Positions 18,916 through 62,375 of a DNA stretch of 64,000 nucleotides are shown piece after piece (the stretch's first letter is position 1; the number at the start of each line of letters is the position of its first letter). This DNA comes from Pseudo-nitzschia pungens (taxonomy: Eukaryota > Bacillariophyta > Bacillariophyceae > Bacillariales > Bacillariaceae): the NCBI GenBank assembly GCA_037355855.1, contig CM074766.1:3162001-3226000 (forward strand), read 5' to 3'. A program made the translations under genes and the position numbers. The notes under the pieces are model-generated. The model saw nothing but the letters and a program-made list of their open reading frames with translations. It was not told the origin of the DNA and made no database searches.

Positions 18916-21900
18916 ATGGCAGAGGACTCCCATCCGATGGCCGAGGCAAATGCTTCTTCCCGGAATCCTCCCTACGAGGACAACGAGAACCACGACTACG
19001 AGGAGGTCTATGATTACGACATTGAGATCGAAGAAATCACCGTTGTGGACGGCGATGAATCCTACGAAGAAATCACCGTGGTGACGGAGGAGGAAGACGA
19101 AACGTACGAATTTGGGTCGAGCACCAACCACACCAACACGGTTGCAACCCTTGACGCAACGATCGGGAGATCGGCGGAATACAAACCAAATTCTGGCGAT
19201 AAGCACAGGAATTACAGCAATCACAGCAGTGCCTTGAGTTCCGACGTCGAAGAAGTTTCAGAAGTTCAGAACGAGGTCGATCTGGAGGAGCTGTGGGTCG
19301 ATGACGTTGAAGTGGAAGACGTCGATCCGGATGAAAACGACGAGTACGAGTTTTACGAATACGAATACGAAGAGCAGGAACAGGAACAGGAACAGGAACA
19401 GGAGAACGAGCATTCCGGAGAGCGCCACGAGGACACCGTGGGTGTCGAAGCGGCTGAAAACGGGACGGTCCGTCGCCGTCTGTCTGGTGGGAATCGAAGC
19501 GGTAAAACCGATGCCGTGGAACCGAACTCCCCCCACAGTGCCGCCAACGATTCTGCAAAGTCATTCTCTCCGGCACCTTCTCGTTCCTCCTCCGCGTCAC
19601 TGCGGAACGATGCCCCGATGCAGCTTGGAAGACGGGGGCGGGGAAGCGACAAGATGCTGACCAAGCCGAGACGAATGAAAAGCATCCACGAACACTCGAA
19701 CAACGCCACGTTCCGGGAATCACCCACACCGTCCACACCGGTTCCAAACGTCATTCTACAGCGAAACGGAAGGGCACCCGAAAACAACAATCTGCCCTCT
19801 CTTTCGCCCGTGAGCAGCAAGAGCGCGTCCACTCAAGCTCGCAGTAGCCGCCAAATACGGTCGGGATCGGGTGCCACCGCCGTATCGCGCAAAGTGCACA
19901 AGCCGCCCTCCCTATCCTCGATCAGCAGCCAAAGCGCGTCGACGAGTGCCCATAGCAGCCGCCAAGCAGATTCAGAAAAGCCAAACTCTGGGAATCAAAG
20001 TAGCTCGGAGCCACCCCAAACGATGCGATCGCAGTCCCACTTTCAACCGCGAAATCCCAATCGCAATCTCGATCCCAATCTCGATCCCAATTGCAGCCAA
20101 CCAAGAACCAACTCTTTGGAAAACACTCCGCTTCCAACCGGTGAACGGGTCAATCCATCGAGGAAAACACTCGGTCCGCAGCACAGAATTTTGAAGCATC
20201 CCTCGAAACCCACTCGTCAACGAGCACGCCGCGACCCCAACACGATGCGAATTTTCCCGGCAAGCAGCACCGTTACTACCACCACCACCACAAGCAGCCA
20301 CAACGACAGCAGTTGCGAGCGTAAAAGGGACAAACGCGGGGGACTTCGTTCGAAAAGCATTGCAGTCCTGGGAACCATGTCCGGTGTCGGCAAGAGCGTC
20401 GTTGCCGCCGGTATTTGTCGGGTGCTTTCCCGAGGTGGAACCCGATGCGCACCCTTCCGGGCGCAAAACACGGGGACTCGCACGTCTCCCGCGCTCCTTC
20501 CGGACCTGTCGCGACGAAAAGCCCTGTACGAATTCTTTGATGCCACCGTGACCAACACGAATGGCGAGGACGACGCGATCCGCAGAAAAACTTCTTCGGC
20601 GTCGCTGGCGATTTCGGTGGCTCCGACCGACGACCAGGGGTGGGGACAAGTCGGAATGACGCAAAGCCTGCAAGCCGAGGCCTGCCAGATCGTTCCGCGC
20701 GTCGAAATGAATCCACTCTTCTTCAAATCGGGGAGGAGAAGAGACCGAACGAACGAAAATGAAAGCAAAACCAACGAGGACGAGGACGATGTGCGTGCCG
20801 TCTTTGTCATGGGGAAGCAACTCCTCCGAGCCACAAAAAAAACGTGCTCCAAACGAGTCCAGGCCCTGAGGACCATAGTTTTAGAGTCCCATCGATCCCT
20901 GGTTGCGACCACGGGTGCCGAGACCATTGTCATACAGGGCGCCGGTTCGTGCTCGGAACTCCATCTTGCAGACGGGGACATTGCCAATCTTCCACTAGTG
21001 CGATGTCTACAGGTAAGTATTGCCTCCCGTCGCATCGCATCGTACAATTGAAAAGAAAAATTATAAAGAGAGTTTGGGTTGTTCTGGGCATGCGTGTATT
21101 CTTCGCGGAGGATCGAAGCGAAACAGATCTCACCCGAAGTTCCTTTCGTTCTTTGTTTCAAAGTGCCCGTGGCTGCTGGTTGCGAGCGACGAAAACGGTG
21201 GTGTTTTTGCTCAAGTCATTGGCACGAAGATGTGCCTTTCGAAACGAGACTGGGAGTTGTGCGTGGGTGTCATTTTGAACAAAGTGAAAGGTAATGTCGA
21301 AGCAGTCGCTTCGGGTTTGAAACGCCTCGAACAGATGACCGGAAAGCCTTTGTTTGTGATTCCGTTCTTAGACCATTGGAGCGCAAAACGTGAGAACGGG
21401 ATCGATGTCGAAAAACGATTGGCATGGGAGAAGAAAGGATACGACAAACCACATAATTGTAAAAGCGAGCGGGACGCAAGGGGGAAATCCACGAGAAAGA
21501 AACCAGTTGTGGTGGTCGTCACATATCCTCATTCCATCACGACCAACGATTTCGGCCCCCTTGAACACGATGGTCGATTTTGCATAGAGTGGCGAAGAAA
21601 ACATTTGCCCAAGCCGTATCCCGTTACTACCGGGGTCATTCTTCCGGACTCGAGACTTGCTTTGGTGGACCTGAAGTGGCTTCATGTAAGTAGTATGTTT
21701 GAAATGGTCCCGCGAGTCCTGCTCCGGTTCCTGTCTCAGGTACGGAAATGTTGCTTCCAAGGCGTCTAACCCGCCCTCGTTGGTATTTCAATTCCAAAGG
21801 ATTCTGGGTGGGCGGACTTTATACGAGAGCATGTTTCAGCGGGGGGGGCTGTTTTGGGGTTGTGCAGTGGCTATCAAATGCTTGGATGGAATGTAAAGGG

Positions 21901-22504
21901 AGAAATCGGTACGAAAAAAGGCATAGGCCTCTTGCCGATTTCTTCCACGGTGAAACCTGCGGAATGCAAACTTGGAAATCACCGGAAGGGACAACTGTAT
22001 CCATCCGGAGTTTCAATAGAAGGGTACGAAGTCAATTGTGGGTTCAGCAAGGTCATCTTTTCGAAGCAAAAGAAGGTGGCAGATATGTATCAAGGGATAG
22101 CTCCTCTCGTTGCGTACGACAACGGTAAGCGAACGAATGAACCCAAGCTGTATGCATGATCAGTTCCGCATTGTGGTCGTTGATGACTTAAAAATAAAAT
22201 GGTTCGCTAACTCGATGCAATTTTGATTCTGGTTGTACCGTCGTGGACCACAGGCAAACCGGAAGGCATGTTGCTCGGCCACGTGAAGGGGACGTACATT
22301 CATGGTATGCTACGATCTGCAAGAGCCCGATTGGAACTCTTGGTTCCGAGCGAGGATCGAAAACGATTTCGGTCCATTTTGTCCGAACGCGCCGTTGTCG
22401 CCACGGGAGACCCACTCGATGTTCTTGCCAACCATTTCAGTACGAGTGGACTCGATCACGACCGGCTTCGCAACATGATTTTCACAAAAGATACACCTCA
22501 GTAG
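18916..22504 (+). CDS. Cobyric acid synthase (CobQ) homologue with long disordered N-terminus (4 exons)
   Basis: The exons are 18916-21012, 21164-21685, 21800-22124 and 22254-22504, all GT-AG and in phase, giving 1064 aa. CobQ amidates four carboxylates of adenosylcobyrinic a,c-diamide using glutamine and ATP, in the lower half of B12 synthesis. Residues 1-480 are acidic or Ser-rich low complexity, including an (EQ)n tract from a GAACAG repeat (19366-19405). The enzyme follows. The P-loop is GTMSGVGKS (~487-495), then APFRAQN, and MTQSLQAEACQIVPRVEMNP (the CobQ-diagnostic QA..EP..DMNP region). VASDENGGVFAQVIGT is joined across intron 1. The glutamine amidotransferase domain has its nucleophile Cys in GLCSGYQMLG and the His in GTYIHG. 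The last four-codon junction GKPEGMLLGHVKG is restored by intron 3. CobB shares the fold, but the MNP block favours CobQ. Introns argue against bacterial contamination. Confidence 0.85.
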
Positions 22505-23265
22505 GAAATATCTTCGCCGCCCTCTGTAGAACCACTTGCAAAGTAGTAGAAAGACGCACATCATTCCAGCGGTTTTCACTGTATGCAACAAACTGAAAGC
22601 TACAGGGAGTCGTCCAATTCAATGCCTGCGAAAATTTCTCGTTGCACTCGGGCTTTGCTGAAGACTGTCCGCTCTGCAGTTTGACAGTTACCAATCTAAC
22701 TGTTCATTGTGTTGTAGCGTCTGACAAGTAATGGTTCACAAGGGCACTGGTACGAAATTACTATTGGAAGTGATCAGCTGGATTTTCGTATCACTTTTAT
22801 GAAAACCAATACTTGTACCGGTAACTTAGTTGTTTGTTGTTGCTGATTTTGTCATTCTAGTCTAGGATTAATTAACAGATTAGGGTACGTGAGGTAGGTA
22901 TGAATCCAACATAACTACTTTGCATGTCCCGCCATCTGAACATCAAACGTACGTACGCACGTACGTACAATACATTACCGGATAGATGTATCGTCGTATC
23001 CATTCCCTTTCGGTTCAGCGCTGAAGTCCGAAATCAACAACAAAATTCCACTTTGGTGTCTCATCACAGATCACCCATCACAATCTCTCTAAAAGAGGCA
23101 TCATCGATTATCGATGGAAACAGGATTGATTCGAACAAGCATCAGGTAATTCCCGCCCTGTTGTTAACCAATATTCGAAATCGAACGTGTTGTCATTGGA
23201 AAAATACATAGCCAAAATCGAATCGACTACTCTTCTACATACAAAAGGTATCATCACTCGTAGTG
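22505..23265. other. Intergenic region between CobQ and RsmB-like genes
   Basis: About 760 bases between two genes on the same strand. No gene is supported. It contains a CGTACGTACGCACGTACGTA near-palindrome at about 22948-22967, shortly upstream of the next gene. Confidence 0.45.
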
Positions 23266-25242
23266 ATGAGAGGCAATTACGCATTGCTTGCTCCTAGTAG
23301 GCTACTGTTGTTGATCGCAGTCATGGGATGCATATTATACGACAAATGCGATGGGTTAAGCAGCAAGAGCAACGTTCCGACGACGCCATCCGATGCTGGG
23401 AGACCAATCACCCATCGGGCGTCAGCGACCTTTGCTTTGATGGAAAGCATGAAACGAAAAAATGCGTTTGCCATTCGCGTGCTGGAGCAGGATCCTGCCT
23501 ATCTGAAATTGGATCGACGGGATCGAGCATTTGCCAGATTGCTATTGTCAACAGCGGAGCGGAGATCGGGACAAATCGAGATTGTCATCAAGAGTTTCCA
23601 ACGCAAAGAAAAGAAGAAGAAAAACTCTAGAGTAGGTTGCCGGTTCAAGCTTCCGGTTCGCGATGAGCGCCTCCTGTGTCTCTCACGCGTTTCGTCCTGT
23701 TCCCTGTTTTATGTCATCCTGAAACAATTCGAATGTGCCAAAAAGCCGCGTTTGACAGATATCCTGGTCGATGCTGCACTGCGAATAGGTGCTGCTCAGA
23801 TGCTGTTTATGGACGTCCCCAAATATGCAGCAGTTTCCGAAACAGTCGAATCTCTGCGGATGCATCCAAAAATCAAGGTGCCGTAAGTAGGGTACCACCG
23901 TACTCCAATCCAAGATAGTAGATTGAAGGTTGAAATCATTTTGCAAACGGGGATCCAATGTATTCAACAAAACGTTTGATTCGTCGCGTACTTACTGAAT
24001 GAATCAACTCGTTGCATCGGTATCGTCCGAGCGCTATAAATGGTGACGTTCCCAGTTAGTGCTCACTTCCATACTCGCTCCTACGTCTCGCACCTTTTCG
24101 CTTGCAGAAAGTCTCAGATCAGTTTTGTAAATGCGGTGCTTCGAAATATTGATCGAGAGGGAGGTCCCATATTAGAAGCAACGTCGACGATTGATAATGT
24201 AGATCCATGGTTGGCAAAACAGTGGATCAAACAATACGGAAAGGAGACGACAGAGACTATTGTTGAAGCTGCTATGTCCCAGTCTCCGGTGTTCGTCACG
24301 GTGAATCATATCATTGATGCCGATGACGATGGCCAAAACGAAAACGATAATTCTGTTTCGACTACCGCGATACGGCAGGACAAGATAAATGAACGGTTGG
24401 AACAAATCAGAGATGTCTTCACTAGTACCGACGATGAAGGCAACCCATTACCAGCAGAATTGCTTCCCGTTGGATCTATTCGAATCCCAGACAATCTCGG
24501 TGGTGCCGTGTCAAAGTGGCCACTGTACGACGAAGGAGCGTGGTGGGTTCAAGACGTGAGCGCGACACTCCCAGCAATAGCTCTTTTTAATAGCCTTTCC
24601 GATACATATGGAGAGGAAAAGTTACGAGACATGCACGTGGTAGACTTGTGCAGTGCTCCTGGGGGTAAGACCGCACAATTGTGTTCGATGGGATTTGGTT
24701 CTGTAGATGCCGTAGAATTCAGCCCACGTCGGAGTCGATCGCTTCATCAAAATTTGAAACGGCTCGTCATGGAAGACATTTGCAATGTCGTCGTGGCGGA
24801 TGGGAGAGAGTACGAGCCAGACATTGCATCTGGCAGTGTTCAGGGAGTACTGGTTGACGCTCCTTGTAGTGCCACCGGTGTTGGAAGCCGTCGTCCCGAC
24901 GTCCTGAGAAAATCTATCGATATGAATGAACTAACAACAATCCAACGGGAGCTGCTCGTGCATGCAGTGGACAATATTCTAGAAGTTGGGGGTGTACTTG
25001 TGTACGCCACGTGCTCCTTATTGAAACAAGAAGGAGAGCATCAAATAGATTGGTTGCTTTCCGAAAAAGGATGCAATGAATCCGGTACACATCTAGAGAC
25101 GATACCATTCACACCTGGTGAAATCCCTGGATTTGATGATTGCATTGACGAGAATGGTTGGCTTCGAGTTATACCTGGTATTTTGCCTGGCTCTTTGAGA
25201 TTTTGCGATGGGTTTTTTGTAGCAAGGTTAGCAAAAAGATGA
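23266..25242 (+). CDS. RsmB/Sun-type rRNA (cytosine-5) methyltransferase, probably plastid-targeted
   Basis: The coding segments are 23266-23882 and 24108-25242 (intron 23883-24107). An additional in-frame 114-nt intron at 23632-23745 is likely. Removing it joins the NusB-like helices (RDRAFARLLLSTAERRSGQIE) to RLTDILVDAALRIGAAQMLF, as in RsmB. Length is 545 aa spliced or 583 aa retained. The start is ATG 23266; the frame extends only to a GTG. The N-terminal NusB-like domain is followed by FVNAVLRNI and the methyltransferase domain with SAM motif DLCSAPGGKT, motif IV VDAPCSATG, and catalytic motif VI YATCSL. Both Cys residues of NSUN/RsmB enzymes are present. A hydrophobic signal (RLLLLIAVMGCILYD) followed by a Ser/Thr-rich stretch fits bipartite plastid targeting in diatoms. 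Target organelle is inference. Confidence 0.85.
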
Positions 25243-27953: not shown

Positions 27954-28025
27954 TGGAGGAGGCAGGAATCGAACCTGCGACTTGTCGCATGCAAAGCGAC
28001 CACTCTACCCCTGAGTTACACCCCC
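27954..28025 (-). tRNA. tRNA-Ala(UGC)
   Basis: A cloverleaf can be drawn on the minus strand. The acceptor 5' strand is GGGGGTG, D stem ACTC/GAGT, anticodon stem GTCGC/GCGAC around the loop TTTGCAT with anticodon TGC, T stem GCAGG/CCTGC with loop TTCGATT, acceptor 3' strand CTCCTCC, and discriminator A. The G3:U70 alanine identity pair is present. Pair 6:67 is a T-T mismatch. No intron and no encoded CCA. A- and B-box-like sequences are internal as expected. Confidence 0.9.
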
Positions 28026-36440: not shown

Positions 36441-36483
36441 CTTCCCAGCCGGGGCCTGAAATTGAGTAAGGTGGGCCGGCTGG
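36438..36483 (+). promoter_or_regulatory. Candidate Gag-Pol stop-codon readthrough signal
   Basis: The Gag stop UGA (36438-36440) is followed in the same frame by an uninterrupted Pol frame. Four bases downstream, CCAGCCGG (36445-36452) is perfectly complementary to CCGGCTGG (36476-36483), with a 23-nt loop. The base after the stop is C (UGACUU), the most permissive +4 base. A structured 3' context plus UGA-C is known to promote readthrough in viruses and retroelements. Pol has no ATG until 36492, and its protease motif starts ~84 nt after that point. Confidence 0.6.
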
Positions 36484-39400
36484 TGTATCAAATGGATGTA
36501 CCAGCAGCACAATCTGCAAGGCCTGCAGAAAGCAACTGTGAGTTGGATAGTCATGCAGACACGACAGCTGCTGGTTGCAATATGATTTTATTGGAAGACC
36601 AAGTCACCTCCCATGTGGATGTTCATCCCTTCTCCCCAGAATATGAACCAGTGAAGAACATTCCGATCGGGACATGCGTCACTGCCTATACGGATACCAA
36701 TGGAAAGGTTTGGTTGATATATTTCCACGAGGCTTTGTATTTCGGGGACAGGCTCCAGCACAGCTTAATTTGCCCCAACCAAGTTAGAAGCTGTGGACAC
36801 AATCGTGTGGACGAAACACCGAGACAGTTTGATTCTAAATCGTCTCATTCCATCCATATTGAGCGTGTTGCTGAAGATGGAGAAGAAGAGGTCCCAACAC
36901 TGGATATTAAGCTCCGACTTAATGGTGTTATTTCCTACTTCCCCTCCAGACGCCCCACGAAAAGGGAAATGCGAACGTGTGATCATGTCATTGCAACCAT
37001 GGATGACCCATGGGATCCAGCCAGCACGAAGTTTCAGCAGGCTGAATCAGCAATCGATCAATCACATCCATATTTCCCTGATCCAACCAAGTTTGTTTCT
37101 GCTGTACAGCAGCAACAACAGACCATGGTTAATACCCCGACAGGCAATATGCCCACAGCAGGAATCGGACCGATTGAGAACCCTGCCCCGATTGAATCGA
37201 TTGAGACCCCTGCCACGACAGGAGTCGAACCACTCGATGCCCCAACACGATCGAACGTTCCGCCCGATTCGAACATCCCCATGTCCGATTGCACAAGCCT
37301 ACAGCCCCCCAACCACAGGAACCACTTCAAATCCTCCCTGTATTCCAAGAAGCTCCAGCTAAATCATATGCTGCCATCCAACGAGAAGTATTCCCACTAC
37401 AAACTGAGACATCTACAGCAGCTGTGTACATCCCGAGATCTGACCCCATGTTCAATTGCTTCCGATGACCGGCTCCATATGAGACTTTCAGCGGTTTACT
37501 CTGAACCCCAAGTTGTTTCTGAAGATGATTCATCTGAGACTTGCGGGGACAGGGAAAGGCCAAGCCTCAAGATCAATGCCCTTCATACACCCTTGTATGA
37601 GCCTGCCTACACTGATGGATTGGATAGATTTGAACTGGATCCCAATGTCAGGGATGCACCGGTTGCCCTATCTGCAGTGTACAAGGACAAGCAAATCGCT
37701 TGGGCTGATTTGGAAGAACCGATTCCCGATCCGGAGATCGAGACAACTCAAAGGCGAAAGCAATGGGGACCATCCATAGATACAGACCGGTACAGCAAGA
37801 TTGATTCAGACAGGCTCTCCAAGATATGGGATATATCTGATCGAAAAGCAAGAGCAACACTGAGAGTGACCACACAAAAAGGATTTAGGAATCCCCAACA
37901 TCCTTTGGTTAGAAGGCTCCCGACACAGAGCTTCAGAAACAAGCGAGTTGCAGCCGGCAAGTGGGGGACTGACACTTGGCATGCAAAGGTACCAAGTATT
38001 ATGAGACAAGATAAAGCCGCCCAAGTGTTCAGCAATGGTAAAGGATATGAAGAATTCATCCCTATCCACAGCAAGAAGCAAGCGGCGGATGGTCTCAAGA
38101 TCTTTATCCATGAGGTTGGAATTCCGGAACACCTGATATCTGATGGGGCTAAGGAGCAAGGCGCAGTCGGCACATACAAGACCCACTGGAATGCTGTAAT
38201 TCGGAAGAACAACATCCATCAGACATTCATCCAGCCACACTGCCCTTTTCAGAACAGAGCAGAATTGAGTATAGGGCATCTCAGCAGAAGCATTCGGAAG
38301 AAGACTGCAAGGAAGAGATCCCCCAAGAGGCTGTGGGCATTCTGTGGTGAGCTTGTGGCAGCTATCAGGCAAAGGACTGCTTCCAGTGATCCAGCATGCA
38401 TGGAAAGAACCCCATTCGAACTAGTCCATGGGCACATGCCGGATATCTCCCTGTATCAAGCTCATGAATGGTATGATTTTGTCTACTGGACCGACCTATC
38501 AGATGGTACAGAGAAGCTCGGGCGCTGGCTTGGACCGTGTGGAAGAATGTTTGGAGGTGGCGACTGCCACTGGATATTGACTGAATCTGCGCTACCAGTA
38601 AGCACTAACACTGTTAGAGCTGTCACTGAAGCCGAATGGCGTGCACATGATGTCAAGCGAGCCATGGACTCATTTGACCAAGCAGTTGAATCCAAGATCG
38701 GGGACAAACTCGAGGACACTGACGTTCAGTTCCAAGAGACATATCCGCAACCCCCAGAAGAACTATTTGAGAACCACCAGGATAGATGGCCAGACGATTC
38801 CACCACCATGGCAGAACCAGAAGCCTCTATCCCAGACGTGGATGAGCTCGTACCTGATGGGGATACCTATGATGAGTATATTGGGAACAAGGTCATGATT
38901 CAAAGAGGAGATGAACGCCTCAAATGCACCGTCAAAGCAAGAACCACTGATTTAAATGGCAATCCTTTAGGGAAGAGGGACAACAACCCTATCCTTGATA
39001 CAAGGATGTACGATTTGCAGCTCCCTGATGGTACAGTGGAGCAATATACGGCAAATATTGTTGCTGAAAACATGTACAGTTCTGTCGATGACGAGGGTCG
39101 TATGTTCACTCTACTGGACGAGATCATAGACCATGAGAAAGATGAAACCGCCGTGACCAAACAACAAGCGACCGCCAAGTCTAACAAGGTTCTTCCTACT
39201 ACAACCAAGGGATGGCGATTCCTAGTTAGCTGGAAGGATGGTACTGAATCCTGGTGCAAACTAGGTGATATCAAGGAGTCTTTTCCTGTTGAAGCTGCGC
39301 AATATGCGGTTGATAACCACATTGCTGATGAGCCAGCTTTCAAATGGTGGGTGCATCATGTACTCCGAAGGAAAAGAAGACTTCTGAAAGCCACCAAGAA

Positions 39401-41153
39401 ATCCAACAAGTACTGGGATCGTACACACAAGTATGGTGTGGAACTCCCACACTCAATCCCTGAAGCGCTTGCTATTGACAAGAAGACCGGAACCGACTAT
39501 TGGCAAAAGGCAATTGCTAAAGAGATGAAGAACAACGAGATGGCGTTTGAGTTTGACCCCAGCTACACCGTTGAAGGTCTCAAGGCTGAAGGATTCAGCA
39601 AGATCACCACCCACATGATATTTGATGTCAAGCTGGGATCCCTCACCAGAAAAGCTCGTTTAGTCGCCGACGGCCATAAAGTACAAGCCACAGCTAAGGA
39701 GCACACTTTCAGCAGCGTACCAAGCAGAGATTCTGTCCGGATATTCTTCCTGTTAGCAGCATTGAATGGATTGGATGTATTGTCTGCTGATATCCAAAAC
39801 GCCTACCTTACTGCGCCAATCAAAAAGAAATATTATTTGGTGGCACGGGCTGAGGACGGTTTCCCCCCTCATTTGGTTGGGCAAGTTTGCAAGATTGTAC
39901 AGGCTCTGTATGGTCTGCCGGTTGCAGGGGCTTCATTTAGATCCTATCTAACTAAGCACCTAAGAGAGCTAGGATACCAACCATGTAAAGCAGATCCTGA
40001 CGTACACATGCGAGTTGAGACCAAGAAGGATGGAACAAGATATTGGGCATATCTCATTGCTTATGTGGATGATATCGTCTGCTGCAGTGAAAATCCAAGG
40101 CGCCAGCTGGAGAGTATAGAACAGCGGTTTACGCTCAAGGATGGTACTATAGAAGTTCCAAAGCTCTACCTCGGCGCTGATGTTAGTCAGTACAAGATTG
40201 ACGATGACCCTATCCCTAAATGGGCCATGTCCTCTGAGAAATATGCCAAGAAAGCAGTGGATGCAGTCGAGCAGGAGCTTGGAACAGAGAAGTATGGATA
40301 CAAGTATCTCCCGAAGAAAGTAACCACTCCACTGACGAATGATTACAGACCTGAGATTGACTTGACCCAGGAGCTGGATCCACAGATGCAGAACTATTAC
40401 CAAGGCCTGATTGGAGTTCTTAGATGGCTTTGTGAACTTGGTAGATTGGATTTGGTGACGCCTGTATCCCTGATGTCAAGGTATTTGGCTCAAGCAAGGA
40501 TTGGTCACTTGAATCAGTTATTCCATATGTTTGCATATATCAAGAACCATGCCAGGTCAAGACTGGTATTCGATGACGCGATCCCTGATATTGACGAATC
40601 CAGTTTTGCTCAGTGTGATTGGAGTGAGTTCTATCCAGACGCCAAGGAGGTTATTCCACCAGATGCTCCAGAAGCCTTGGGCAAAGCTGTTGTTATGACG
40701 TGTTTTGTTGACGCAGATCATGCCGGATGCAAAGCAACCAGAAGATCCCATACTGGTATCATTATCTTCTTGAACAACGCTCCTATTCTTTGGTTCAGCA
40801 AGAGGCAAACCACAGTGGAGACCTCTACCTTTGGTTCTGAGATTGTGGCAATGCGCATTGCTGTTGAGATGATTGAAGGCCTCAGATATAAGCTCCGAAT
40901 GCTGGGTGTGCCCATTGCTGGATCCACCAATGTATTTTGTGACAACGATTCAGTTGTAAAGAATGTTACCAGACCGGAGAGTCCATGCGACAAGAAGCAT
41001 AACAGCGTTGCCTACCACAAGGCTCGTGAAGCCATTGCTGCTGGAACAATCCGTGTCGCGAAGGAGCCAGGTGAGAGCAACATTGCTGACCTATTCACTA
41101 AGTTGCTTAATGGTCCCATGTTGAAGAGCCACTGCGAACGATGCATGTGGTAG
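36441..41153 (+). CDS. pol: Copia Pol polyprotein (protease, integrase, reverse transcriptase, RNase H)
   Basis: The frame is open from the Gag stop to 41153 (1570 codons). The aspartic protease motif is CELDSHADT. The integrase catalytic triad is visible as TDTWHAK (D, ~510 from the Gag stop), ISDGAK (D, ~566) and NRAELSI (E, ~604). Reverse transcriptase shows KARLVADGHKVQ, SADIQNAYLTAP and the active-site YVDDIV (~1207). RNase H shows FVDADHAGCKATRRSHTG and FCDNDSVVKN, and the end is IADLFTKLL. All domains appear intact, consistent with the near-identical LTRs. Without an own ATG before the protease, expression as a Gag-Pol fusion is expected. Confidence 0.93.
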   Translation, partial: LPSRGLKLSKVGRLVYQMDVPAAQSARPAESNCELDSHADTTAAGCNMILLEDQVTSHVDVHPFSPEYEPVKNIPIGTCVTAYTDTNGKVWLIYFHEALYFGDRLQHSLICPNQVRSCGHNRVDETPRQFDSKSSHSIHIERVAEDGEEEVPTLDIKLRLNGVISYFPSRRPTKREMRTCDHVIATMDDPWDPASTKFQQAESAIDQSHPYFPDPTKFVSAVQQQQQTMVNTPTGNMPTAGIGPIENPAPIESIETPATTGVEPLDAPTRSNVPPDSNIPMSDCTSLQPPNHRNHFKSSLYSKKLQLNHMLPSNEKYSHYKLRHLQQLCTSRDLTPCSIASDDRLHMRLSAVYSEPQVVSEDDSSETCGDRERPSLKINALHTPLYEPAYTDGLDRFELDPNVRDAPVALSAVYKDKQIAWADLEEPIPDPEIETTQRRKQWGPSIDTDRYSKIDSDRLSKIWDISDRKARATLRVTTQKGFRNPQHPLVRRLPTQSFRNKRVAAGKWGTDTWHAKVPSIMRQDKAAQVFSNGKGYEEFIPIHSKKQAADGLKIFIHEVGIPEHLISDGAKEQGAVGTYKTHWNAVIRKNNIHQTFIQPHCPFQNRAELSIGHLSRSIRKKTARKRSPKRLWAFCGELVAAIRQRTASSDPACMERTPFELVHGHMPDISLYQAHEWYDFVYWTDLSDGTEKLGRWLGPCGRMFGGGDCHWILTESALPVSTNTVRAVTEAEWRAHDVKRAMDSFDQAVESKIGDKLEDTDVQFQETYPQPPEELFENHQDRWPDDSTTMAEPEASIPDVDELVPDGDTYDEYIGNKVMIQRGDERLKCTVKARTTDLNGNPLGKRDNNPILDTRMYDLQLPDGTVEQYTANIVAENMYSSVDDEGRMFTLLDEIIDHEKDETAVTKQQATAKSNKVLPTTTKGWRFLVSWKDGTESWCKLGDIKESFPVEAAQYAVDNHIADEPAFKWWVHHVLRRKRRLLKATKKSNKYWDRTHKYGVELPHSIPEALAIDKKTGTDYWQKAIAKEMKNNEMAFEFDPSYTVEGLKAEGFSKITTHMIFDVKLGSLTRKARLVADGHKVQATAKEHTFSSVPSRDSVRIFFLLAALNGLDVLSADIQNAYLTAPIKKKYYLVARAEDGFPPHLVGQVCKIVQALYGLPVAGASFRSYLTKHLRELGYQPCKADPDVHMRVETKKDGTRYWAYLIAYVDDIVCCSENPRRQLESIEQRFTLKDGTIEVPKLYLGADVSQYKIDDDPIPKWAMSSEKYAKKAVDAVEQELGTEKYGYKYLPKKVTTPLTNDYRPEIDLTQELDPQMQNYYQGLIGVLRWLCELGRLDLVTPVSLMSRYLAQARIGHLNQLFHMFAYIKNHARSRLVFDDAIPDIDESSFAQCDWSEFYPDAKEVIPPDAPEALGKAVVMTCFVDADHAGCKATRRSHTGIIIFLNNAPILWFSKRQTTVETSTFGSEIVAMRIAVEMIEGLRYKLRMLGVPIAGSTNVFCDNDSVVKNVTRPESPCDKKHNSVAYHKAREAIAAGTIRVAKEPGESNIADLFTKLLNGPMLKSHCERCMW

Positions 41154-55673: not shown

Positions 55674-58600
55674 CTACTCCTCCATCTTGGTGCCATCCCT
55701 GCAATAATAGGGATCGACTCTCCTAATGTTAACCCGGTCGGTTACAAAGGGAGCAGTTTCAATAGTTACAGTTCCATTATCGTGGGCCTTGAGCACCTTG
55801 TAAGGTCCTTGCTGCGGGAAGGATAGTTTTGGGATAATGCCCTTCCTTTCCAGGGTGACATAGTCTCCTTCCTTATAGACATGGGGAATCCTCTTCTGAT
55901 TCTCCCGGATATTGCTCTTGTGGATACTTTTCTGTTTCCTTGCTTGGATTGCTTCCCAATCCACTGGGAAATTCACAGGCATAAACATGTCCCTTCTGAA
56001 CACCAATTGTGCCGGGGAGTACCCCAGGGTGGTGTGGATGGCGCTTCTGATAGCATATGCTGCCTTGGTGGTGAATTCCTCAAAGGGGTCCTTCTCATGG
56101 AGGTCCCTCTGCTCCAGGTTGAAGGACAATAGGCAGTCCTTCAGAACATGGTGGATCCTCTCCAACACTGAATTGGATTGTGGATTCGAAGCCCCACTAG
56201 GCTTTCTTTTCATCCCCATGTTCTCACAGAGCTCTTGAAACTCTGCTTTGAACTCACTCCTGCCATCAAAGCCAATCTCCTTTGGGCGCGGATATCTTGC
56301 TAGCCAGGTACTATCCAACAATCGTTGAGTTTCGGCTGCATTTGGTGAGTCCTTCAGGTGAGCCAGTTCAAACCATCCGGTGACTGGGTCCACCATGGTG
56401 AGAACATGGATGTGGTAGTCTTTACCATTTTTATTGTGGACAGTTGCAGGTCCCCAGAGGTCTACATTGACCCTCTGCCATTTGGTGATCTCAGCTGCTT
56501 TCTCCGGTAGTAGTCCATACTTCTTCCGGCCACTCTTTTTGAACATCTGGCACGTGTGACAGTGTTTACAGAGGTCCTGGACGTCCTTTCGGAGACCTTT
56601 CCAGGTGAACACTGAGCGAATGCTCTGTTCCGTTCTCTTTTCTCCAGGGTGGACCAACATGGTGTGGTACCACTCCATAACTCTTTCCTTGAGTTTGTCG
56701 GGAATCAGGATCTTTCCTTCTTTGTGGATGAGACTGTAACCTTCCACATTCTTGGTGGTTAGTCGGTTGTCTTTTTCCAGAGCACTTGTGATCTCTGTGT
56801 CCTTTTGTTGGTAGAACTGGATCATGTCCGGGGCAAGTGGGAATGCACTATTGCCCTGGAATTCTTCCGGTGATTCTCCAAGTGGGAATAGGAGTTGCCG
56901 GAGGTGCTCTTCTTCATCCGCGGAGGTGAGGGGCTTATTTGGTGGTAGCCATTCCACGGTGTCTGCTGGATCATCAGTGATGTCCAGTCGGGACAGCGCG
57001 TCTGCTGCATCATTGTCCTTGCCGGCAACGTGCTTGACTATTGGGTGGAACTCCTCCATAAGGAGTCTCCACCGGACCATCCTTTGGGTGGGCATCCGCT
57101 GGTAGAGCAGGTTAAGGTGGTCTGTGTGGATAATCACATCTTGGCCTCGTAGGATTCCTTCGAACGCTTTTAGTCCTTCCACTATACCAAGGAGTTCTTT
57201 TTCCCCTACAGTGTAGTTGAGCTGCACTGAGTTCAGTTTCCTTGTGTAGAATCCAAGGGGTTTGCCATCTTGGCATACAGTTGCTCCCAGTTGCCCGTCA
57301 CTGGCATCTGAGTAGAGATGAAATGGTTTCGTAAAATCGCAGCAAGTTTTGCTTCCTCTGCGAGCATCCTCTTTGCCTCCATGAAAGCTTTCTGCTCTGC
57401 TGGGCCCCAATACCAGTTCATTTTGCCCTTTTTCCCTGCGAGTTTGTTGAGGGGGGCCAGGATGTGGGAGCGGCGCTTCCACATGTCCCTGTAGAAGTTT
57501 ACCATGCCAAGGAACATCTTGAGTTGCTTGGTGTTCTTGGGGGCTTCCAGACGCTTCATCGCCTCCAGCTTCTTTGGCTGGGGTTGAATGCCCACTGTTG
57601 TTAATAGAAATCCCAGGTACTCCACTTCTTTTTGTATGAAGAAGGATTTCTGGAGGTTGGCGCGAAAGCCAGCATCATCCAGTCTCTGTAGGACTGTGTC
57701 GATTTTGTTGAGGTGATCCTGTTCAGATTCGTCTTCTCTCTGGATGATTAGGATATCGTCGATGTAGACAAGAACATAGTCCAGATCCCCCAGTAGGTTC
57801 ATCATGACTGATTGGAAGATGTCAGGTGCACATGCAATCCCCATTGCCAGCCTCTTGTAGGCATATTTTCCCCACGGCAAGATGGTGGAGCAGATCTTTT
57901 GGCTCTCCTTGCAGATGGGAATGGTATAATATCCTTGAGATAAATCCAGCGCTGTAGCTGATTTGAACTTTTGCAGTCTTTGGATTGTTTCCCCTATTCG
58001 TGGTAGTCCAGCGCCGTGGCTGACTTGAATTTCTGCAGCCTCTGGATTGTTTCCCCTATTCGTGGTAGTGGGAATGGTTTCCTTTGGATTGCGGCGTTCA
58101 TCTTCCGGAAGTCCGTAAGGACCCGAATGTCACCTGTTTTCTTCGGTTGACAGAAGGTAGGAGATGCCCATGGCGAGTCATCATCATGGGGGAGTTTTTC
58201 TAGGACTCCAATATCACAGAGCCTATTGATCTCCTTTCGGAGTGCTTGTTCAAAGGCATGGTGCACAGAATAGTACCTCTGCCGGCCTGGTTTGACCCCT
58301 GGTTGGAGTTCAATCGATACCGGTTCAATGTTTTTGAGCAGTCCCAACCCTCCTCCAAAGAGAGTAGGGAACTTTTTCAATGTTTTCTTTAAGGCTTCCT
58401 TGGACTCGTCTGTGATCTCCAGGTCGTTGACCATAGCGTCTATATCAACCTTGGAGTAATCTGCGTCCAGAATTTTGGATTGCCTCTCTTCCTCCTGTTG
58501 GAGGATTGGACTTTGTGTGTTGGCAAAGAATACTGCCTCACATTTGTCCGGGTCAGCGAGCTCCCCCATTCCCTTCATGGGGATGGAGTCACCCTGCCAT

Positions 58601-59105: not shown

Positions 59106-62100
59106 TTACTTGTTCGATTCAATGCCATCCCTGCAATAATAGGGATGTACTCTCCTAATGTTAACCCGGTCGGTTACAAAGGGAGCAGTTTCAATAGTTA
59201 CAGTTCCATTATCATGGGCCTTGAGCACCTTGTAAGGTCCTTGCCGTGGGAAGGATAGTTTTGGAATAATGCCCTTCCTTTCCAGGGTGACATAGTCTCC
59301 TTCTTTATAGACATGGGGGATCCTCTTCTGGTTTTCCCTGATGTTGCTCTTGTGGATGCTCTTCTGCTTCCTTGCTTGGATTGCTTCCCAATCCACTGGG
59401 AAGTTCACCGGCATGAACATGTCTCGACCAAACACCAGTTGCGCTGGGGAGTACCCCAGGGTGGTATGGATGGCGCTTCTGATAGCATATGCTGCCTTGG
59501 TGGTGAATTCCTCAAAGGGGTCCTCCTCGTGGAGGTCCCTGTTTTCCAGGTTGAAGGACAACAGACAGTCCTTTAATACCTGATGGATCCTTTCCAACAC
59601 CGAGTTGGATTGTGGGTTCCAAGCCCCGCTGGGCTTTCTTTTCATCCCCATGTTCTCGCAGAGCTCTTGGAACTCTGCTTTGAACTCACTCCCGCCATCA
59701 AAGCCAATTTCCTTTGGGCGCGGATATCTTGCCAGCCAGGTACTGTCCAACAATCGTTGAGTTTCTGCTGCATTTGGGGAGTCCTTCAGGTGAGCCAGTT
59801 CAAACCATCCGGTCACTGGGTCCACCATGGTGAGGACATGGATTTGGTAGTCTTTACCATTTTTGTTGTGGACAGTTGCAGGTCCCCAGAGGTCCACATT
59901 GACCCTCTGCCATTTGGTGACCTCAGCTGCTTTTTCCGGTAGTAGTCCATACTTCTTCCGGCCACTCTTCTTAAACATCTGACACGTGTGGCAGTGCTTA
60001 CAAAGGTCCTGGACGTCCTTCCGTAGGCCTTTCCAGGTGAAGACTGAGCGTATGCTCTGTTCCATTCTCTTTTCTCCGGGATGGACCAACATGCTGTGGT
60101 ACCATTCCATAACTCTATCCTTGAGTTTATCGGGAATCAGGATCTTTCCTTCTTTATGGATTAGGTTGTAACCTTCCACCATTTTGGTGGTTAGTCGATT
60201 GTCTTTTTCCAGAGCATTCACGATTCCTGTGTCCTGTTGCTGGTAGAACTGAATCATGTCCGGGGCAAGTGGGAATGCACTATTGCCCTGGAACTCTTCC
60301 GGCGCTTCTCCAAGTGGGAATAGGAGTTGCCGGAGGTGCTCTTCCTCATCCGCGTAGGTGAGGGGCTTATTTGGTGGTAGCCATTCCACCGTATCTGCTG
60401 GGTCATCCGTAATATCCAGTCGTGATAGTGCATCTGCTGCATCGTTGTCTTTGCCAGCCACATGCTTGACTACCGGGTGGAACTCCTCCATGAGGAGTCT
60501 CCACCGGACCATCCTTTGGGTGGGCATCTGCTGATAGAGCAGGTTAAGGTGGTCTGTGTGAATAATCACATCTTGTCCTCGTAGGATTCCTTCGAATGCC
60601 TTCAGGCCTTCTACTATGCCCAGGAGTTCTTTTTCTCCAACAGTGTAGTTGAGCTGCGCCGAGTTCAGCTTCAGGGTGTAGAAACCAAGGGGCTTGCCAT
60701 CTTGGCATACAGTTGCTCCCAGTTGCCTATCGCTGGCGTCTGAGTAGAGATGAAATGGTTTCGTAAAGTCCGGGAATGCAAGCTTAGCTTCATCTGCGAG
60801 CATCCTCTTCGCCTCCATGAAAGCTTTCTGCTCTGCTGGACCCCAATACCAGTTCATTTTGCCCTTTTTCCCTGCGAGTTTGTTCAGAGGGGCTAGGATG
60901 TGGGAGCGGCGCTTCCACATGTCCCTGTAAAAGTTTACCATTCCAAGAAACATCTTGAGTTGCTTGGTGTTCTTGGGGGCTTCTAGTCGCTTCATCGCCT
61001 CCAGTTTCTTTGGCTGGGGCTGAATGCCTTCTGTTGTTAACAGAAATCCCAGATATTCCACTTCTTTTTGCATGAAAAAGGATTTTCTGAGGTTGGCTCG
61101 GAAGCCAGCATCGTCCAGTCTCTGTAGGACTGTGTCGATTTTGTGGAGGTGATCCTGTTCGGACTCGCCTTCCCTCTGTATGATTAGGATGTCATCGATA
61201 TAGACGAGGACATAGTCCAGGTCCCCTAGTAGGTTCATCATGACTGACTGGAAGATATCGGGTGCACATGCAATTCCCATTGCCAATCGTTTGTAGGCAT
61301 ATTTTCCCCATGGTAAAATGGTAGAGCAGATCTTCTGGCTCTCCTTGCAAATGGGAATGGTATAATATCCCTGGGACAAGTCAAGCGCCGTAGCTGACTT
61401 GAACTTTTGCAGTCTTTGGATCGTTTCCCCTATTCGTGGTAGTGGGAATGGTTTCCTTTGGATGGCTGCGTTCATCTTTCGAAAGTCGGTTAGGACGCGA
61501 ATGTCCCCTGTCTTCTTGGGTTGACAGAAGGTAGGGGATGCCCACGGTGAGTCGTCATCGTGGGGGAGTTTTTCCAGGACTCCAATATCACAGAGCCTGG
61601 TGATCTCCTTTCGGAGTGCTTGTTCAAAGGCATGGGGTACAGAATAGTACCTCTGCCGGACCGGTTTGACCCCTGGTTGGAGTTCAATGGACACCGGTTC
61701 TATATTTTTGAGCAGACCCAATCCTCCTCCAAAGAGTGTTGGGAATTTCTTCAGTGTTTTCTTCAGCGCTTCCTTGGACGCGTCTGTAATCTCCAGGTCA
61801 TTGACCATAGCATCTATATCGACTTTGGAGTAGTCGGCGTCCAGGATTTTGGCTTGCCTTTCTTCCTCTTGTTGGAGGATTGGACTTTGTGTGTTGGCAA
61901 AGAATACTGCCTCACATTTGTCCGGGTCAGAGAGCTCCCCCATCCCCTTCATGGGAATAAAGTCACCCTGCCATTCGATCGTACGGGAGCTGTATTTTAT
62001 ATCCAGTCCCAGTTGTGCCATTAGATCGGATCCTATAATCATGTCATAGGGTACTTCCTCATGGTGATGATACTCATCCACTTGGAAGGTCCATTTGATG

Positions 62101-62375
62101 GTCTTGGAGTTTGAAAATTCTATCAGCCTTAGTCCCACTGAAGCCGCAGACTTGGTTCTGAACTTGCCTCCATATGTGTTGTAGGTGACAGATCTTTGGT
62201 CTCGGTTCGTTAGTTGACTTCGGTTGACAAAGTGCCTTAGTATGATGGATTTGGAGCACCCGGAGTCGAGTAGGCCCCGGAGCATCCTCCCCCTTCCCTT
62301 GTGGTCCAATACCTCCACACAGACGTCCGCAAATCGATTGATTATGCGTGGTCCGGTGTGGATGGTATTGGCCAT
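59106..62375 (-). CDS. pol: Gypsy Pol polyprotein (protease, RT, RNase H, integrase)
   Basis: 1089 aa from the ATG immediately following the gag UGA. Protease: LLDSGCSKSIILRHF (~37). RT: FCQPKKTGDIRVLTDFRKMN, SATALDLSQGYYTIPI, and the active site YIDDILI (~395). RNase H: HLYSDASDRQLGATV and IIHTDHLNLLY. Integrase: zinc module HPGEKR...CKHCHTCQ, then VDLWGP, IGFDGGSEF and SNSVLERIH supplying D, D and E. The C-terminal part YVTLERKGIIPKLSFPRQGP resembles the SH3-like tail. No chromodomain is visible. The frame is intact, so this copy may be active. Confidence 0.92.
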   Translation of the reverse strand: MANTIHTGPRIINRFADVCVEVLDHKGRGRMLRGLLDSGCSKSIILRHFVNRSQLTNRDQRSVTYNTYGGKFRTKSAASVGLRLIEFSNSKTIKWTFQVDEYHHHEEVPYDMIIGSDLMAQLGLDIKYSSRTIEWQGDFIPMKGMGELSDPDKCEAVFFANTQSPILQQEEERQAKILDADYSKVDIDAMVNDLEITDASKEALKKTLKKFPTLFGGGLGLLKNIEPVSIELQPGVKPVRQRYYSVPHAFEQALRKEITRLCDIGVLEKLPHDDDSPWASPTFCQPKKTGDIRVLTDFRKMNAAIQRKPFPLPRIGETIQRLQKFKSATALDLSQGYYTIPICKESQKICSTILPWGKYAYKRLAMGIACAPDIFQSVMMNLLGDLDYVLVYIDDILIIQREGESEQDHLHKIDTVLQRLDDAGFRANLRKSFFMQKEVEYLGFLLTTEGIQPQPKKLEAMKRLEAPKNTKQLKMFLGMVNFYRDMWKRRSHILAPLNKLAGKKGKMNWYWGPAEQKAFMEAKRMLADEAKLAFPDFTKPFHLYSDASDRQLGATVCQDGKPLGFYTLKLNSAQLNYTVGEKELLGIVEGLKAFEGILRGQDVIIHTDHLNLLYQQMPTQRMVRWRLLMEEFHPVVKHVAGKDNDAADALSRLDITDDPADTVEWLPPNKPLTYADEEEHLRQLLFPLGEAPEEFQGNSAFPLAPDMIQFYQQQDTGIVNALEKDNRLTTKMVEGYNLIHKEGKILIPDKLKDRVMEWYHSMLVHPGEKRMEQSIRSVFTWKGLRKDVQDLCKHCHTCQMFKKSGRKKYGLLPEKAAEVTKWQRVNVDLWGPATVHNKNGKDYQIHVLTMVDPVTGWFELAHLKDSPNAAETQRLLDSTWLARYPRPKEIGFDGGSEFKAEFQELCENMGMKRKPSGAWNPQSNSVLERIHQVLKDCLLSFNLENRDLHEEDPFEEFTTKAAYAIRSAIHTTLGYSPAQLVFGRDMFMPVNFPVDWEAIQARKQKSIHKSNIRENQKRIPHVYKEGDYVTLERKGIIPKLSFPRQGPYKVLKAHDNGTVTIETAPFVTDRVNIRRVHPYYCRDGIESNK

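Follow-up and report, generated by a model that had tools for sequence, protein, structure and literature searches.

The spliced CobQ-like gene and its features

We describe here a stretch of 64,000 nucleotides (henceforth the window) from the diatom Pseudo-nitzschia pungens (assembly GCA_037355855.1, contig CM074766.1, positions 3,162,001 to 3,226,000), and in particular a spliced gene within it that is related to cobyric acid synthase (CobQ) and carries an altered synthetase site. The gene lies at positions 18916-22504 of the plus strand. Its four exons join in one open frame of 1064 amino acids, which confirms the phase-consistent GT-AG introns proposed in an earlier reading of the sequence alone (the original prediction). 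All three introns begin with GTAAG and end with AG, and P0002, a translated MMETSP transcript with 95% identity over 57% of the query, runs unbroken across introns 2 and 3. The features of the gene, all on the plus strand, are the following.

18916..21012, plus strand: exon 1, an N-terminal extension of acidic, low-complexity sequence (residues 1-476), then the start of the CobQ synthetase domain
20371..20397, plus strand: P-loop GTMSGVGKS (residues 486-494), with the Asp of SDxGKS replaced by Gly
20935..20937, plus strand: codon 674, Glu of EGAGS replaced by Gln
21013..21163, plus strand: intron 1, 151 bases, GTAAGT...AAAG
21164..21685, plus strand: exon 2, remainder of the synthetase domain
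21188..21190, plus strand: codon 708, Ile replaced by Asp, as in all 6 Q-type sequences compared (see below)
21686..21799, plus strand: intron 2, 114 bases, GTAAGT...AAAG, junction spanned by P0002
21800..22124, plus strand: exon 3, glutamine amidotransferase domain; its GLCSGYQMLG motif contains Cys895 (21863-21865)
22125..22253, plus strand: intron 3, 129 bases, GTAAGC...ACAG, junction spanned by P0002
22254..22504, plus strand: exon 4, with His998 (22301-22303) in GTYIHG and the stop codon at 22502-22504

Family assignment and predicted fold

The 598-residue core of the protein matched the Pfam families CbiA (46.5 bits) and GATase_3 (75.3 bits), in the order CbiA-type synthetase followed by GATase_3, and the Pfam scan reported no Mur ligase domain in it. 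The core passed the cut-off of the NCBIfam cobyric acid synthase model PRK00784 (294.3 bits, cut-off 273) and stayed under that of TIGR00313 cobQ (202.9 bits, cut-off 309.9). Competing models scored far lower, with 28 bits for CobB and 14.4 bits for GatD (GatD cut-off 400). These profile scores, rather than the tree described below, which holds CobQ sequences only, point to CobQ by descent and not to CobB or GatD, as the original prediction had it. Membership among functional CobQ enzymes is not claimed, since the Glu of EGAGS in the synthetase half is replaced by Gln674. A CobQ query retaining this Glu matched the window gene alone when searched against the genome, without any second CobQ. 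The only other GATase_3 match of the genome (L002), considered as a second CobQ or a CobB, was rejected, being HisHF; no CobB was found.

Structures were predicted for two relatives, P0027, which retains the Glu (pLDDT, the predicted local distance difference test, 83.3), and P0001 from Pseudo-nitzschia multiseries, which has Gln (pLDDT 77.5). Both models resemble solved amidotransferases, CTP synthase and MurT/GatD ranking first for one of them, and MurT/GatD and HisH for the other, with CTP synthase at rank 12. Judging by these models, the CobQ with Gln probably still folds.

Relatives and phylogeny

A protein search scored a capped set of 7995 candidates, 1442 of them with E <= 0.001, and the best 120 of these 1442 were examined; the full-length window protein gave 38 matches. 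We took P0001-P0080 as diatom-type, while the sequences from P0081 on look bacterial. Among the matches listed, most members of P0001-P0080 have neither an organism name nor a genome code, and those that have one are all diatoms, the names being Pseudo-nitzschia multiseries, Nitzschia inconspicua, two Cylindrotheca, 'Bacillariaceae sp.', Attheya and Thalassiosira pseudonana. To judge from these matches, the CobQ-like gene is not unique to this genome and has homologues in other diatoms.

An unrooted tree was built from 78 sequences, comprising 48 bacteria (40 of them every second locus) and 24 E-type and 6 Q-type sequences, i.e. diatom-type CobQs with Glu or Gln at the EGAGS position. All diatom-type CobQs fell on one side of a branch with 100/100 support. 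The six Q-type sequences, including those of the window and P. multiseries, formed a single clade (100/100) nested within the diatom type and sister to N. inconspicua. A quick tree of 47 sequences was concordant. No bacterial group stood nearest to the diatom-type CobQs in the 78-sequence tree that could be named as donor lineage, and a single acquisition from bacteria would be its simplest reading. The N. inconspicua protein (P0007) retains the synthetase Glu and has Tyr in place of the amidotransferase His.

Replacement of conserved residues

Three motifs of the synthetase half are changed in the window CobQ: SDxGKS to SGVGKS, FKAQN to FRAQN and EGAGS to QGAGS. When P0001-P0080 were aligned with the window protein, the EGAGS column was present in 65 of the 80 sequences, with Glu in 50, Gln in 14 and Asp in one (P0026); Gln is also found in the window protein, P0088 and P0203. 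The CobQ profile aligns the EGAG of solved dethiobiotin synthetase with EGAGS, albeit in a weak match. We take the EGAG Glu to bind metal in dethiobiotin synthetase and the matching Glu to be important in CbiA. P0026 itself (628 aa, a protein from the Joint Genome Institute, JGI) is a further degenerate diatom-type CobQ, with Gly for the nucleophile Cys in addition to Asp for the synthetase Glu.

For a wider view of conservation, we compared the window protein with 22 of the 50 E-type sequences, 5 of the 14 Q-type sequences (picked for length) and 87 bacterial sequences, of which 8 were proteins and the others came from 79 of 80 loci with an open frame. Deep invariants were defined as the 64 columns at least 97% identical in bacteria and at least 90% in E-type sequences. 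The window protein breaks 15 of 63, and the other Q-type sequences 19/62 (P0001), 8/48 (P0003), 13/62 (P0004), 16/64 (P0005) and 16/64 (P0006), whereas 21 of the 22 E-type sequences break between none and three. Over the 62 deep columns represented in at least four Q-type sequences, 10 are lost in every Q-type sequence having the column (one of these being a gap in the window protein), 16 in some and 36 in none. Several of these ten carry a shared replacement, E674Q and I708D in 6/6 Q-type sequences and L602F, L603F and H952N in 5/6. At the position of the P-loop Ser, 9 of 13 Q-type relatives with the column have Gly or Ala, and among the near-full-length Q-type sequences the nucleophile Cys is Gly in 2/6 and the His is Tyr in 1/6; the window protein retains all three residues. 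Its identity to P0005 is 79% at deep columns and 55% elsewhere. Taken together, the shared replacements, the 36 deep invariants kept and the open frames favour selection over decay.

The N-terminal extension of the window CobQ (about 476 codons) contains no stop, while 0 of 2000 base shuffles were stop-free, and it is very probably coding, though not alignable: BLASTP against 11 relatives gave no match. Long acidic extensions are also present in several relatives, namely the E-type P0015, P0017, P0019 and P0073 and N. inconspicua, so that an N-terminal extension likely predates the residue changes.

B12 genes elsewhere in the genome

CobQ converts cobyrinate a,c-diamide to cobyric acid, and CbiZ arrives at the same compound by cutting cobinamide or pseudocobalamin; the products of both feed CbiB. 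Of the enzymes of CbiZ-type corrinoid remodelling, the genome encodes CbiZ and CbiB, and with them CobU, CobS and CobT.

L015:2941-6101 (G000:C10:503940-507100), minus strand: CbiZ and CbiB fused in a single gene that has two introns, from profile matches and splice joins
L017:4591-7053 (G000:C2), minus strand: CobS-CobT fusion in one frame, with an intron inside CobS
L016:3202-4400 (G000:C2), plus strand: CobU, its second exon with a PterinBD-DUF4346 domain, about 10 kb from CobS-CobT

CbiZ (PF01955, 120.7 bits) is followed by CbiB on contig C10, and two GT-AG introns (340 and 262 bases) yield one frame, restoring GTLESLSENLSDG of CbiB. In a CbiZ search that scored 7994 candidates, 60 of the 80 matches combined a CbiZ with a CbiB domain in a single protein, and the nine with an organism name or genome code were all from diatoms or 'Bacillariaceae sp.'; on this count the CbiZ-CbiB fusion is widespread in diatoms. 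The halves of CobS can be joined by a 105-base GT-AG intron, alternative joins being possible. For the pairing of CobU with PterinBD-DUF4346 in its second exon we offer no explanation.

MetH was found in the genome, and the MetE N-terminal domain had no match in the genome search. Two PduO-type adenosyltransferase matches were also present, one of them interrupted by an in-frame stop that perhaps belongs to an intron. De novo corrin synthesis is not indicated, as CobB/CbiA was not found and CbiC, the one ring enzyme searched for, had 0 matches. As to synthesis of an own lower ligand, BluB matched two nitroreductase-like frames, whose scores of 42 and 36 bits lie far under the cut-off of 150. 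We have not called them BluB, since they stay below the cut-off and a control search gave a signal in all 14 genomes tried, exceeding the cut-off in only 3 of them. PMC12803021 states, citing others, that bluB is present in Fragilariopsis cylindrus and two Pseudo-nitzschia species.

To see how other B12 enzymes of the same genome fare, bacterial comparison sequences were taken from DNA flanking the CobQ loci. The resulting sets are small, and those for CobT, the two CobU exons and the first half of CobS (9-13 bacteria each) hold no other diatom sequences. The C-terminal half of CbiB had 26 bacterial sequences and its N-terminal half no usable ones. The second half of CobS had one match in the bacterial flanks and CbiZ none, so that CbiZ was compared among diatom-type sequences only. 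In the CbiB C-terminal half, 0/17 columns identical in the 26 bacteria are broken, and in the CbiZ exon 1/46 columns conserved in 74 other diatom-type sequences, the one being an artefact of frame clipping. CobU exon 1 departs at 0/15 columns and the first half of CobS at 1/20. Against nine randomly drawn bacteria, the window CobQ departs at 31%, five E-type sequences at 15-16% and N. inconspicua at 19%.

Genomic setting

The window sits on a 4.0-Mb contig of a 66.9-Mb, 28-contig genome. Of 21 other open reading frames of the window scanned with Pfam, 12 match a family, including SNF2, GT25, RsmB/F, NusB, HMGL-like and alpha/beta hydrolase, and retroelement reverse transcriptase or integrase domains as well. 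With a spliced gene among ordinary eukaryotic genes and retroelements, the eukaryotic origin assumed in the original prediction is supported. The frames of long terminal repeat (LTR) retroelements lie at 36462-41150 (plus strand), 55677-57482 (minus strand) and 59109-62375 (minus strand), one with RVT_2 and two with reverse transcriptase/RNase H and integrase. Just downstream of CobQ, at 23263-25239 (plus strand), a NusB domain is followed by an RsmB/F methyltransferase domain, resembling a bacterial-type RsmB divided over exons. A tRNA gene at 27954-28025 (minus strand, 63.7 bits) is the sole Rfam match over threshold in the window.

Interpretation and alternative explanations

We favour, with moderate confidence, the view that the window gene encodes a CobQ homologue that would no longer carry out the standard ATP-driven amidation, cobyric acid being obtained instead by CbiZ from scavenged corrinoids. 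From the sequence comparisons it is likely that this CobQ has lost or changed its amidation role and yet remains under selection. CobQ probably reached an ancestral diatom from a bacterium. The replacement of Glu674 by Gln and of Ile708 by Asp would have come later, in the Pseudo-nitzschia-like branch, together with changes in motif residues around the P-loop, and the fourfold amidation of cobyrinate a,c-diamide is predicted to have been lost or altered. As no CobB was found, the CobQ substrate would need an outside source, whereas CbiZ can use scavenged corrinoids. Imported cobamides would be cut by CbiZ to give cobyric acid, from which CbiB, CobU, CobT and CobS would make cobalamin anew for MetH; the search turned up no MetE that could stand in. 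CobQ may in this way have been freed of its former duty in this branch and then re-tooled, and the protein is probably still selected, as a re-tooled amidotransferase or a corrinoid-binding helper. A more specific version, which we put forward tentatively and think rather doubtful, is that CobQ became a new enzyme in the Pseudo-nitzschia branch, an amidotransferase for a new substrate whose catalytic carboxylate, lost at 674 through E674Q, reappears at 708 through I708D, while the diatom-type CbiZ-CbiB fusion supplies cobyric acid. If true, CbiZ-CbiB with CobU and CobS-CobT would be the first eukaryotic CbiZ-type route of B12 remodelling.

Several points weigh against the loss or change of amidation that we favour. 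Gln in place of Glu can leave some activity, and 6 of 64 deep invariants are already lost in N. inconspicua, an E-type sequence that lies outside the Q clade. Other B12 enzymes of the genome have changed as well: CobT departs at 14/61 columns identical in nine bacteria and CobU exon 2 at 4/15. With no BluB over the cut-off, and CobC outside the search as too general a family, the recycling route may be incomplete. Moreover, the P-loop GKS with its Lys and Ser, Cys895 and His998 are intact and the PRK00784 cut-off is passed. These last features, and the presence of the next enzyme, CbiB, would suit a working cobyric acid synthase that tolerates the changes, its glutaminase half providing the ammonia to complete the amides of imported cobyrinate a,c-diamide or of corrinoids that have lost some of theirs. 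We consider this unlikely, given that 15 of 63 deep invariants are broken, including Glu674 in all six sequences, that relatives in the same clade lack the Cys or the His, and that no CobB was found to supply the substrate. It is likewise improbable that CbiZ made CobQ dispensable in this branch and that the gene is decaying, its frames open only through the recency of the loss. Losses do vary among the relatives, two of which lack the Cys, one the His and 9/13 the P-loop Ser, and N. inconspicua would show an early stage, but the window exons are free of in-frame stops, a relative has a near-identical transcript, replacements are common to 5-6 of 6 sequences with 36 deep invariants retained in all, and identity to P0005 is higher at the deep columns than elsewhere. 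Bacterial contamination or a chimeric contig, for which the mainly bacterial distribution of the family is the sole argument, is extremely improbable: the gene has introns and its spliced relatives already contradict it, relatives are known from several sources under diatom names, LTR retroelements share the window with eukaryotic genes, and the contig measures 4.0 Mb in an assembly of 28.

The original prediction of a bacterial gene acquired and domesticated stands in part. The diatom-type clade is set apart from the 48 bacterial sequences, whereas a complete, domesticated CobQ does not agree with the loss of 10 deep invariants across the Q clade. Its motif list passed over the altered SGVGKS, FRAQN and QGAGS. 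Of the two roles it suggested, working salvage of cobyrinate fits the sequence less well than a repurposed amidase. The downstream enzymes are encoded, CbiB, CobU, CobS and CobT having all been found in the genome, and CobB not.

Novelty and relation to known systems

The abstract of Vancaester et al. 2020 is said to have called five consecutive late genes as acquired by horizontal gene transfer (HGT), with the full suite in F. cylindrus. Diatom CobQ has therefore probably been reported there already. The Pleurosigma genome paper cites the same study for the cobalamin genes of F. cylindrus and describes CobU acquired by HGT in seven diatoms (PMC12803021). According to Helliwell 2016 (PMC4850488), CobT, CobS and CobC occur in some algae, CobT and CobS are absent from T. 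pseudonana, and neither cbiZ nor cbiB was found in the algal genomes analysed. In the part of a MAST-3 stramenopile paper that was accessible, B12 auxotrophy is only predicted (PMC12614181). Our literature search, outside which most subscription papers lie, returned no report of a diatom CbiZ, a CbiZ-CbiB fusion or the CobQ residue changes. What looks new is the nested clade of the window gene and P. multiseries, in which residues kept by bacteria and other diatom-type CobQs are replaced.

The ability or inability of phytoplankton to rebuild B12 from pseudo-B12 and pieces of corrinoids is of direct consequence for ocean ecology. It could be tested directly through growth with a genome such as this one, which encodes CbiZ-CbiB, CobU, CobS-CobT and MetH and gave no match to MetE. 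The diatom CobQs also form a natural series, from intact to rewired, for following the loss or change of a B12 enzyme.

With the known CobQ/CbiP family (PRK00784, TIGR00313; CbiA and GATase_3) the window protein shares domain order, P-loop Lys, MNP block and the amidotransferase Cys and His. It differs in the replacements E674Q, I708D, K515R, D777N and H952N, among others, in its introns and long acidic extension, and in falling under the TIGR00313 cut-off. The nearest solved relatives of its two halves by sequence profile are MurT/GatD and, in a weak match, dethiobiotin synthetase, the likeness to MurT/GatD extending to fold in the predicted models of the two CobQ relatives. Like the late cobalamin genes of diatoms treated in PMC12803021, the genes described here are probably bacterial ones retained for late B12 steps, whereas the CobQ residue changes and the CbiZ-CbiB fusion are not among the content of the accessible part of that paper. 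As in bacterial CbiZ-type corrinoid remodelling, named in PMC4850488, this genome encodes CbiZ, CbiB, CobU, CobS and CobT; unlike the bacterial system, the genes here are eukaryotic and spliced, with CbiZ fused to CbiB and CobS to CobT.

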